The position numbers and the translations under genes are program-made. DNA of 64,000 bases, taken from contig NZ_CP128400.1 of NCBI RefSeq assembly GCF_030389965.1, forward strand, positions 2,170,001 through 2,234,000, given 5' to 3'. Under the pieces are notes generated by a model. The model worked only from the letters and a program-made list of their open reading frames with translations. It was not told the origin of the DNA and did no database searches. Shown here piece after piece: positions 37,567 to 61,748 of this stretch (positions are counted from its first letter, which is position 1; each line of letters starts with the position of its first letter). This DNA is from Candidatus Chlorohelix allophototropha. Its GTDB lineage: Bacteria > Chloroflexota > Chloroflexia > Chloroheliales > Chloroheliaceae.

Positions 37567-39681
37567 ATGGCTGGCACACTCGTAATCGTTGAATCGCCCG
37601 CGAAGGCGAAAACCATCGGCAAATATCTAGGGCGCGACTACACGGTACGCGCCACCATGGGGCATGTGCGGGATTTGCCGCCAGAACGACTCGGCGTAAA
37701 TGTTGAGGACGGCAGCTTTTTGCCCGAATACGAATCGGTAAAAGGGCGCGGTAAAATAATCGGCGAAATTCGCACGCTGGCAAAAGAGGCAAGCGCGGTA
37801 TTGCTCGCCACCGACCCCGACCGGGAAGGGGAAGCAATCGCGTGGCACATTGCCAGCGCGGCGGGACTAAACAGGCGCGGTCTTAAAGTGAGCCGGGTAG
37901 AATTTCACGAAATCACCGAACGCGCCATCAAACAGGCGGTGGCTAACCCGCGCCAATTGGATATGAACCTCGTCAATGCACAACAGGCGCGGCGTGTGCT
38001 AGACCGTTTGGTGGGCTATCGCCTTAGCCCCTTATTATGGAAGAAGGTGCAGCGTGGCTTGAGCGCAGGGCGCGTACAAAGCGTGGCGTTGCGGGTGGTG
38101 GTAGATAGGGAACAGGAAATCGAGGCTTTCGTACCGCGCGAATTTTGGACGGTGGAAGCCGATCTTGCCCGTAGCCCATGGAGCAAGCAAAAAAACGACC
38201 TGTTTCGCGCCGTATTATTCACCCGCGAGAAGTCGCCCCGCAAGTGGGAATTTGAGAAAGGCGAGGAAGCGCAACAAGTCGTAAAAGAGCTAGAGGCGGC
38301 GAGTTGGAAGGTGGCTGCAATCACCCGCAAAGAGAAACGCCAGCATCCCTCCGCCCCCTTTACCACCAGCACTTTGCAGCAAGAAGCCGCCCGCAAACTC
38401 GGCTTTGCTGCCAAGCACACCATGAAGGTGGCGCAAGAGCTTTACGAAGGGGTTTCGCTTGGCTCGGAAGGTAACTCCGGGCTTATCACCTACATGCGCA
38501 CCGATAGCGTGAACGTATCGCGGGAAGCGCAGGAAGCGGCGCGAGCGGTGATAGTGCAGCAGTTCAGCCCGGAATATTTGCCTAGCAAGCCGCCCTTTTA
38601 TAAGAGCAAAGCCCTTAACGCGCAGGAAGCGCACGAAGCCATCCGCCCTACCAACCCGGCGCGTCTGCCCGATGGAATCCGGCAATTTCTCGGCGCGGAT
38701 CAGCATCGCCTGTATCGCCTGATTTGGCAACGCTTTATCGCCAGCCAAATGGCGGAGGCGCGTTTGGAAGTTACCACCTACGACATTGACGCACAACCCC
38801 GCGAGCGTACAAAGCAACCTTACTTGTTCAGGGCAAGCGGCGAAAGAACGATTTTCCCCGGCTTTATGGCGATTTATCGCGAGTCGGTAGGCGATAGCGA
38901 AGATTCGGAAGAAATTAAAGGCTTGCCGCGCTTGCAAGAAAACGATGCGCTTGACCCGGTAAAGCTTCTGCCGGAACAGCATTTCACCCAACCGCCCCCA
39001 CGCTTTGGAGAAGCCACGCTGGTAAAAACGCTGGAAGAATTGGGAGTGGGACGACCTAGCACCTACGCCACCATTCTCTCCACCATCCAAGATAGAGGCT
39101 ATGTGGTGGTGCAGGGCGTGGGGCGTGAGAAAAAGTTCGTGCCGACCCCGCTTGGCAGCGCCGTTACCACGCTATTGGTGGCGCGTTTCCCCGATTTGCT
39201 GGACGTGAAATTTACCGCAAAGCTAGAGGACGAATTAGACCAAGTGGCGGAGGGCAAGCGCGAATGGGTTCCGCTGGTGGCGGAAGTGTATCACCCTATG
39301 ATGCAGCATTTGGCTTTGGCGGAACGAGAAGTGGCTAAAATCGAGGTGGCGCAATCGCCCGATTTTCCCGTTGCAGAGAAGCGCAAAACTACCGGGCGGA
39401 GTTCCTATACCCGCAAAAGCGGCAGTAGCTCTTACGCTGCTAAAACTCCCCGCACCCGGAAAACCGCCGAAAAAAAAGCCGATTATGCCACGCCGAACGG
39501 TGAACCGTCTGGCGAAAAAGTAGCGGTAAAACGCGCCCCTCGCCAGAAAGCGGTTGTTGCCGAAGAAGCGCAAGTGACGTGCGATAAATGCGGCAAACCA
39601 ATGGTCAAGCGCAAGGGACCCTATAGCGAGTTTTACGGATGCAGTGGTTATCCCACTTGTCGCAACATCCGCAAGCTTTAA
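37567..39681 (+). CDS. topA: DNA topoisomerase I
   Basis: A 704-residue type IA topoisomerase that relaxes negative supercoils. It has an N-terminal TOPRIM domain (LVIVESPAKAKTIGKYLG and ATDPDREGEAIAWHI with its acidic triad). The nucleophile is Tyr309 in GLITYMRTDSVN. The GVGRPSTYATILSTIQDRGYV block of domain I follows. After a Lys/Arg/Ser-rich linker (about 590-660) there is one four-Cys zinc ribbon (CDKCGKPMVKRKG then CSGYPTCRN). One ribbon is fewer than the three of E. coli TopA but usual in many phyla. The upstream ribosome site is weak. Confidence 0.95.
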   Translation: MAGTLVIVESPAKAKTIGKYLGRDYTVRATMGHVRDLPPERLGVNVEDGSFLPEYESVKGRGKIIGEIRTLAKEASAVLLATDPDREGEAIAWHIASAAGLNRRGLKVSRVEFHEITERAIKQAVANPRQLDMNLVNAQQARRVLDRLVGYRLSPLLWKKVQRGLSAGRVQSVALRVVVDREQEIEAFVPREFWTVEADLARSPWSKQKNDLFRAVLFTREKSPRKWEFEKGEEAQQVVKELEAASWKVAAITRKEKRQHPSAPFTTSTLQQEAARKLGFAAKHTMKVAQELYEGVSLGSEGNSGLITYMRTDSVNVSREAQEAARAVIVQQFSPEYLPSKPPFYKSKALNAQEAHEAIRPTNPARLPDGIRQFLGADQHRLYRLIWQRFIASQMAEARLEVTTYDIDAQPRERTKQPYLFRASGERTIFPGFMAIYRESVGDSEDSEEIKGLPRLQENDALDPVKLLPEQHFTQPPPRFGEATLVKTLEELGVGRPSTYATILSTIQDRGYVVVQGVGREKKFVPTPLGSAVTTLLVARFPDLLDVKFTAKLEDELDQVAEGKREWVPLVAEVYHPMMQHLALAEREVAKIEVAQSPDFPVAEKRKTTGRSSYTRKSGSSSYAAKTPRTRKTAEKKADYATPNGEPSGEKVAVKRAPRQKAVVAEEAQVTCDKCGKPMVKRKGPYSEFYGCSGYPTCRNIRKL

Positions 39682-58409: not shown

Positions 58410-58426
58410 ACAAAAAAACGAATCCG

Positions 58427-58478
58427 AGTGGGGCTCTCAGAGGTGCATCCCCTGTGCGGGGTCATAGAGGGTTGACTC
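58427..58478. repeat. Family T repeat, truncated copy
   Basis: GAGTGGGGCTCTCAGAGGTG, then CATCCCCTGTGCGGGGTCAT: the left half of the unit seen at 61.3 kb, in the 303-base gap before the TIR-domain gene. Nothing else recognised in the gap. Confidence 0.65.
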
Positions 58479-58660: not shown

Positions 58661-60136
58661 ATGCCCGAAACCATTCCCTCGCTAAAATTACAGGTTTTTC
58701 TCTGCCACGCCTCTGAAGATAAACTTGCCGTACGCGCGCTTTATGAGCGTCTGAAAACCGAGAATTGGATTCATCCATGGCTGGACGAGGAAGAACTGAT
58801 ACCCGGACAACCTTGGCGCTACGAAGTTGAAAAGGCTTTGGAAGAGAGTCACCTCATTTTGGTGTGCCTCTCCCCCCAATCTGTGGCTAAACAAGGCTAT
58901 GTTCAGTATGAAATAGAAACCGCGCTTGACTATGCCAAATATATGCCCGAAGGAATGAGTAATATCATACCTTTGAAATTGACGGAGTGTAAAATCCCAC
59001 GAAGGCTAAGCAAATGGCAATACGTCAACTATTACGAGAACCAAGGTTACGAAAAACTCCTAAAAGGTTTGAGTTTACGAGCCAAAAAACTGGAGAAACC
59101 AGCGCATGTAGCCGTTTCAATCCCTACTGCACCTTCAATCCCTACTCTATCCCGTACACTGCCCATAGAAGCATCTCGTATATCGCTCATACCATTCATA
59201 CCTTCTAAATCAATTCTTTTAATCTTATTACCCATCATATTAGTATTGTTAGTATCTTTTACCTTAATTAATCCCTTTGGTTCAAACTCTTCTGCTAATC
59301 CTACCAACACCATCTTTGCTCAACTTACAACCACAGTTACTCCAGTAAGGGTAACCTCGACATCAGTTCCAACCACAATTGTTATCCCTACGACCGCTAC
59401 TAACGTATCAGCACCAGAAGGGAGCGCCACTACAAGTTTACTAACGGCTACTCCCACCTTCTCACCGAGTCGCACAATTACCCCTCAGCCCGGTACAACT
59501 ACCAGCCCCACCGCAATAGCAGTAGCGTTTGATTTTGCTGCTCCCGGCAGCAACACTATGGGAATAGCTTGGGATGGCAAAAATCTGTGGCTATCCAACA
59601 ACGATGCAACAATTTTTCAGGTTGATACTCAAGGTAACACATTGGGTTCTTTCCGCTCGCCTGATGCAACCCCAGAGGGTTTGACCTGGGAAGGGTCTAA
59701 TCTATGGCTTATTACTAGGAATTACAGCTTCATTCACCGCCTTCAAGTTAACGGCGTAAACTTGAAGGAAGTAAGCAAATACCCCGCTTCTAGAGACGGA
59801 GTAATTGGTGGCGGAGTTATAACCGACCTTGAATGGGTAGACCAAAATTTATGGTACTCAAATCAATATGTTATACGAAAGTTGGATGCTTCGGGAAATA
59901 TTCTTACTAATCTGGCTTTCCCAAAAAATATTTTGGGGCTTGCCTGGGATGGCAAAAAATTTTGGGTGGCGCACGAAAATAAAACCCCCTTCGATATGGT
60001 AATTAGTACGGTTTCTATTGAAGGTAAAATTTTGGCTACTTTTCCCTCTCCCGTACAGGAAATAGTAGGGCTTGCTTGGGACGGTGGATATTTGTGGGCA
60101 GCTACCGAGAAACAAATATATAAGTTAAAGGTGTAG
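58661..60136 (+). CDS. TIR domain - transmembrane - beta-propeller protein
   Basis: 491 residues. An N-terminal TIR domain (about 9-140) starts VFLCHASEDK. Its conserved SPQSVAKQGYVQYEIETAL supplies a candidate catalytic Glu84 for NAD cleavage. One transmembrane helix (about 183-203) and a Ser/Thr/Pro-rich stalk (about 208-290) follow. The C-terminal part (290-491) has five blades with 'LAWDGxxLW' (IAWDGKNLWLSN, LTWEGSNLWLIT, LEWVDQNLWYSN, LAWDGKKFWVAH, LAWDGGYLWAAT), a propeller outside the cell. No signal peptide precedes TIR, so the topology puts TIR in the cytoplasm. Sensing by the propeller and signalling or NAD depletion by TIR is an inference. No partner gene is coupled to it. Confidence 0.88.
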   Translation: MPETIPSLKLQVFLCHASEDKLAVRALYERLKTENWIHPWLDEEELIPGQPWRYEVEKALEESHLILVCLSPQSVAKQGYVQYEIETALDYAKYMPEGMSNIIPLKLTECKIPRRLSKWQYVNYYENQGYEKLLKGLSLRAKKLEKPAHVAVSIPTAPSIPTLSRTLPIEASRISLIPFIPSKSILLILLPIILVLLVSFTLINPFGSNSSANPTNTIFAQLTTTVTPVRVTSTSVPTTIVIPTTATNVSAPEGSATTSLLTATPTFSPSRTITPQPGTTTSPTAIAVAFDFAAPGSNTMGIAWDGKNLWLSNNDATIFQVDTQGNTLGSFRSPDATPEGLTWEGSNLWLITRNYSFIHRLQVNGVNLKEVSKYPASRDGVIGGGVITDLEWVDQNLWYSNQYVIRKLDASGNILTNLAFPKNILGLAWDGKKFWVAHENKTPFDMVISTVSIEGKILATFPSPVQEIVGLAWDGGYLWAATEKQIYKLKV

Positions 60137-61341: not shown

Positions 61342-61720
61342 TCAAGTGGGAATAGGAGAGAGGAGTTCAAGGGGACACCCCTTGCCACCCCGCACAGGGG
61401 TTGCACCCCTGAGAACCCCGCTCGGATTCGTTATCCCCCTCAAGTGGGAATAGGAGAGAGGAGTTCAAGGGGACACCCCTTGCCACCCCGCACAGGGGTT
61501 GCACCCCTGAGAACCCCGCTCGGATTCGTTAACCCCCCTCAAGTGGGGAATAGGAGAGAGGAGTTCAAGGGGACACCCCTTGCCACCCCGCACAGGGGTT
61601 GCACCCCTGAGAACCCCGCTCGGATTCGTTATCCCCCTCAAGTGGGGAATAGGAGAGAGGAGTTCAAGGGGACACCCCTTGCCACCCCGCACAGGGGTTG
61701 CACCCCTGAGAACCCCGCTC
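61342..61720. repeat. Tandem array of four family T units (98-99 bp each)
   Basis: Four nearly identical copies begin at 61342, 61440, 61539 and 61638 (TCAAGTGGG...). Each contains AGGAGAGAGGAGTTCAAGGG, GACACCCCTTGCC, CGCACAGGGG and GAGAACCCCGCTC. Spacing is constant and there are no unique spacers, so this is not a CRISPR. The left border GTAATTATTCACCCCC also occurs, inverted, at about 23.8 kb. Confidence 0.9.
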
Positions 61721-61735
61721 TGGCTGAATTGTTAC
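61720..61735. repeat. Solitary IS66-type terminal repeat
   Basis: CTGGCTGAATTGTTAC is identical to the right end of the IS66 element at 44120-44135. It joins directly to the last family T unit; no transposase or second end is present. Confidence 0.75.
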
Positions 61736-61748
61736 TAATTATTTTTGA

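Follow-up and report, generated by a model that had tools for sequence, protein, structure and literature searches.

The bacterial TIR proteins characterised to date mostly do their sensing inside the cytoplasm, and the majority of known TIR NADases are enzymes of defence or cell death. Animal Toll receptors recruit adaptors via TIR–TIR contact. In the bacterial enzyme AbTir, S140, R151, D167, V193 and W204 are needed for NADase activity, and W204 is in addition required for the 2'cADPR product, being less conserved in TIRs that make other products (PMC11374754). Multicellular bacteria have been described as having FGE sensors on TIR, STAND and kinase proteins, in some cases diversified by retroelements (PMC7159879, PMC8195603, PMC10907252), and FGE domains with retroelement-type variable tails are a known sensor type (PMC10907252, PMC8195603). 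For a bacterial receptor type comprising a TIR domain, a transmembrane (TM) helix, a stalk and an ectodomain, no description was found in the open-licence literature.

The protein described here is encoded by Candidatus Chlorohelix allophototropha L227-S17, whose published replicons measure 2.96, 2.45, 0.375, 0.241 and 0.055 Mb (PMC10972752). The host genome comprises five contigs (6.09 Mb), and the window, i.e., the whole stretch of 64,000 nucleotides that was analysed, corresponds to 2.17–2.23 Mb on the second contig. As judged by alignment, the protein is one member of a Chloroflexota TIR family that swaps its sensors, with cytosolic FGE proteins as its nearest TIRs, a relationship that the original prediction missed.

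Domain layout and topology

The gene and its parts, all on the plus strand, are as follows.

58661–60136, plus strand: whole gene, 491 residues, intact open reading frame from ATG to TAG
58688–59089, plus strand: TIR domain, about residues 10–143
58910–58912, plus strand: Glu84, predicted catalytic residue
59210–59269, plus strand: single membrane helix, residues 184–203
59270–59518, plus strand: Ser/Thr/Pro stalk, residues 204–286
59519–60133, plus strand: predicted extracellular five-repeat beta-propeller, residues 287–491
59570–59590, plus strand: repeat motif 1, WDGKNLW, residue 304 (motif scan, as for the next four)
59687–59707, plus strand: repeat motif 2, WEGSNLW, residue 343
59834–59854, plus strand: repeat motif 3, WVDQNLW, residue 392
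59945–59965, plus strand: repeat motif 4, WDGKKFW, residue 429
60077–60097, plus strand: repeat motif 5, WDGGYLW, residue 473

The single membrane helix has a mean hydropathy of 3.21 at residues 185–203 and is modelled by AlphaFold2 (AF2) as a helix spanning residues 183–203. Three Lys/Arg residues precede it on the inner side and none follow on the outer side. The 83-residue stalk behind it, 55% Ser, Thr or Pro, is modelled with low confidence, like a disordered linker. The same charge bias, with more Lys/Arg before the helix than after, is found in all 15 of the single-TM proteins in the compared set, and at the place of the propeller a sibling encoded by the host has a PASTA domain that scores above the Pfam cut-off. 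These signals support an N-in/C-out topology, with the TIR domain cytoplasmic and the propeller extracellular. The receptor-like layout of the original prediction, with its one membrane helix and Ser/Thr stalk, is thereby upheld.

The prediction of five WDGxxLW blades outside the cell likewise agrees with the C-terminal domain. The five motifs within 205 residues compare with a maximum of one in 20,000 shuffles of the domain, and the single-sequence AF2 model is all-beta, with block pLDDT values mostly of 70–90 and the weakest (53–58) near residues 371–390. Glutaminyl cyclase is a five-bladed propeller, and the Zymomonas enzyme (3nol) is the top Foldseek match in the PDB, with a TM-score of 0.67 on the target and 17% identity. 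This best fold match would suit a reading in which the membrane helix and propeller, as an enzyme or adhesin module, do no more than tether the TIR to the membrane and the propeller perhaps acts alone, e.g., as a glutaminyl cyclase; against it stand the low identity over the fold match, the lack of any Pfam family, enzymes included, matching the domain, and the siblings that keep the TIR while the C-terminal domain differs, which together make such a module very improbable. A PDB sequence search with the propeller gave nothing meaningful. WDG propellers elsewhere share at most about 32% identity with that of the target across the greater part of its length, and those whose reading frames were read belong to non-TIR proteins. 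With the best relative so distant, the ligand surface is unreadable from conservation.

The TIR domain and its predicted active site

On the full-length protein, Pfam matches are to TIR families alone, the best being TIR_2 (residues 12–134, E=1.9e-22), and the longer defence proteins matched in PADLOC and NCBIfam align only by their TIR portions. Because single-sequence AF2 gave pLDDT values of only about 20–40 on the TIR half, this half was remodelled with 51 aligned sequences, yielding a mean pLDDT of 88 and a pTM of 0.83. The best PDB matches of the resulting model (Foldseek) are the TIR domains of SPARTA, TIR-1, MyD88, AbTir and BtTir. The structure prediction proposed as a check returned a TIR fold for one half and an all-beta, propeller-like domain for the other.

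Glu84, the conserved Glu of the original prediction, lies on the alpha-C segment at the position of E208, the catalytic Glu of AbTir, and every one of the 51 aligned TIRs has it. Three of the residues needed by AbTir are retained: R151 corresponds to Arg25 (Arg in 37 of the 51), D167 to Asp42 (kept in 50) and V193 to Val68 (Val in 41). The other two are replaced, S140 by Cys15 (Cys in 44) and W204 by Tyr80 (Tyr or Phe in 48), so that activity or product may differ. An active site comprising Glu84, Asp42 and Arg25 is therefore plausible by alignment. NAD hydrolysis would be expected, with its product not fixed by the sequence, since the residue tied to 2'cADPR is the one replaced by Tyr80. By predicted fold and catalytic Glu, the domain is assigned to the enzymatic type of TIR, sharing both with AbTir, BtTir, PdTIR and the SPARTA TIR-APAZ protein; unlike these, it is membrane-anchored with an extracellular domain and has Cys and Tyr at the AbTir S140 and W204 positions.

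The main rival takes this TIR as a non-enzymatic scaffold that recruits the cell's other TIR proteins by TIR–TIR contact and leaves the output to its partners. Candidate partners are present, as the subfamily of the target accounts for 13 of the 21 TIR_2 places in the host genome, and the replacement of two residues required by AbTir fits such a role. However, a pure scaffold would need neither the invariant Glu84 nor the nearly invariant Asp42, and we consider this reading rather unlikely.

Exchange of C-terminal domains among TIR relatives

The host genome encodes 12 close TIR paralogs with 42–71% identity to the target (tblastn). Besides the target, the subfamily comprises seven soluble TIR-FGE proteins, one TIR-TPR protein and four proteins with a membrane helix, namely TIR-TM-PASTA (L007), TIR-TM-WD40 (L010), TIR-TM-stalk with an unassigned ectodomain (L009) and coiled coil-TIR-TM-stalk (L013). 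L007 (C1:413825-414520), which has a 312-residue reading frame, is the TIR equivalent of the PASTA kinase receptors. Eleven of the 13 subfamily genes, the target counted, lie at 1.90–2.23 Mb on C2, a repeat-rich region that also holds three TIR-STAND-TPR genes (L035–L037) and looks like an expansion zone.

Among 400 Chloroflexota genomes, close TIR relatives are concentrated in one family; those from a second scan, made with a TIR alignment, are mostly from Anaerolineales. Anaerolineales and related Chloroflexota include many filamentous organisms. Most family members are soluble TIR-FGE proteins, and a recurrent subset has the TIR-TM-stalk-ectodomain layout, the ectodomain being FGE, PASTA, WD40 or unassigned. 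At least seven TIR-TM-stalk-FGE relatives are found in Chloroflexota (L104, L109, L112, L125, L126, L131 and L134); the second scan also yields seven, some of which are the same loci as in the first. Other ectodomains follow the membrane helix in L110, L115, L133 (weakly lectin-like) and L217. The search for the same architecture in other genomes thus found the layout to recur, with its propeller version in the target alone: no other fusion of a TIR with a WDG propeller was seen among the Chloroflexota relatives scanned, and a single-sequence query with the full-length protein retrieved nothing related from the genome contigs.

In the TIR tree, four cytosolic TIR-FGE proteins encoded by the host form the sister group of the target (SH-aLRT 97). 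The tree requires 12 changes of the membrane-helix trait, a rough sign of swapping and no history, since most inner forks are weak (30 of the 48 open). TIRs of one clade carrying different sensors, together with these changes, form the basis of the sensor-swapping reading, and by comparison of the aligned proteins the family shows one TIR module joined to exchangeable C-termini.

Apart from L056, the FGE places of the host genome (L057–L073) encode proteins that combine FGE with a TIR, nSTAND, kinase, TPR or coiled-coil part. In 15 aligned tails of these proteins, the first and second positions of C-terminal codons vary while the third stays C or T, a pattern by which the tails of the closest TIR relatives look like targets of a diversity-generating retroelement. 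Two template repeats, AAC/AAT-rich copies of the FGE variable region, are embedded in a non-coding element that measures about 380 nt and is 96% identical between its copies. One (L225:5868-5980; C5, about 38,867–38,979) is located about 200 nt behind a TIR-STAND-FGE gene and the other (L226:3703-3820) on C2 at about 643,702–643,819. The template pattern occurs in the host genome only at C5 and at C2:0.64 Mb, and is absent at the target. No retroelement-type reverse transcriptase was found in the host genome, where RVT_1 and BPP-1 Brt matched group II-type enzymes only; the templates may have lost their enzyme or depend on one that escaped recognition.

The target thus resembles the described FGE conflict proteins (TIR, STAND, kinase) in that its closest TIRs are such TIR-FGE proteins of the same genome, and differs in having a propeller, no FGE-sulfatase domain of C-type lectin fold (by Pfam) and no variable region, outside any NTPase operon. 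For Thoeris, no ThsA gene (STALD or SIR2) is present among the scanned neighbours, and the ThsB_TIR match of the target is below the cut-off; a STALD search of the host genome gave zero matches, but its control gave none either. For SPARTA, no Argonaute is encoded among the scanned neighbours, and the Argonaute-system models of PADLOC match the target by the TIR part only. The target falls outside the FGE-retroelement, Thoeris, SPARTA and Toll families.

The neighbouring genes encode an inositol monophosphatase, an S51-type peptidase, a ferritin-like hydroxylase, a metallophosphatase and a transposase. Among the scanned neighbours there is no adjoining defence partner, effector or signal receptor and no defence operon, and Rfam gives no RNA family at the locus. 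A 46-nt repeat is present at 58417–58462 and 61348–61745 of the window, with four tandem copies of about 100 nt among its occurrences there. Its inverted copies flanking the gene were considered as mobile-element ends specific to it; this was rejected, as the genome has at least 23 copies, mostly on contig 2.

PASTA domains bind cell-wall fragments. The PASTA sibling, the scanned neighbours free of defence genes and the dominance of Anaerolineales and related Chloroflexota in the family would all accord with a sensor of the envelope or of physiology in place of an immune receptor, one that responds to cell-wall state, a nutrient or a neighbour by adjusting NAD or ADP-ribose signalling. Yet the retroelement-type diversification of FGE and STAND relatives would suit the recognition of non-self targets that keep changing, and known TIR NADases, as noted above, act mostly in defence or cell death; a purely physiological role seems quite improbable to us.

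A putative surface receptor

We lean towards reading the target as a ligand-gated, NAD-consuming, single-pass surface receptor, in which the NADase activity, the ligand and a role in phage defence are put forward by inference. The NAD-consuming part of this reading draws on the TIR fold, the invariant Glu84 and the conserved Arg25 and Asp42 matching AbTir. The surface-receptor part draws on the one positive-inside helix in the target and throughout the compared single-TM proteins, from the PASTA sibling and from the TIR-TM-stalk-FGE relatives. A sensor role for the fused parts is suggested by the TIR family of the same genome that is fused to FGE with retroelement-type tails (PMC10907252, PMC8195603). 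Counting against the reading are Cys15 and Tyr80 at two positions that AbTir needs for activity, the scanned neighbours free of an effector or signal receptor, and a propeller whose nearest relatives are distant. Alignments and models show the domain order, topology signals, conserved active-site Glu and family-wide sensor swapping.

In the proposed mechanism, the stalked propeller would bind a ligand in or outside the envelope. Ligand binding would gather receptors so that the cytoplasmic TIR domains assemble, with clustering as the switch, and the assembled TIRs would cleave NAD+ through Glu84, both steps, like the outcome for the cell, being modelled on known TIR enzymes. Cleavage would then lower NAD or yield an ADP-ribose signal, leading to growth stop or cell death. 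Such a receptor may have originated when a TM-stalk-propeller segment was joined to a TIR module that is shared with the cytosolic FGE sensors of the same cell.

The target is similar to animal Toll/IL-1 receptors in its single membrane helix, outside ectodomain and inside TIR, and differs in its reversed order (N-terminal TIR), its propeller instead of LRR or Ig domains and its lack of a known adaptor; the resemblance is a likeness of layout, with descent not shown. Bacterial PASTA or propeller Ser/Thr kinase receptors share with it a cytoplasmic signalling enzyme, one membrane helix, a flexible linker and an extracytoplasmic sensor. The target has a TIR in the place of the kinase, and the TIR-TM-PASTA sibling is the direct parallel.

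It is possible, and we suggest it tentatively, that filamentous Chloroflexota possess a bacterial equivalent of Toll-type receptors, alike in layout as well as role, as a family of single-pass receptors with a conserved NAD-cleaving TIR inside and exchangeable outside sensors, beside a cytosolic branch with retroelement-hypermutated sensors, such that one TIR output would serve both inside and outside surveillance. The protein offers a compact system for asking how an outside ligand turns a TIR enzyme on. The host setting is one of multicellular filaments, in which a cell that kills itself can protect those next to it. If the reading is true, the recurrent TIR-TM-stalk-ectodomain layout would imply that surveillance by bacteria extends to the cell surface, with its NAD-based output unchanged.
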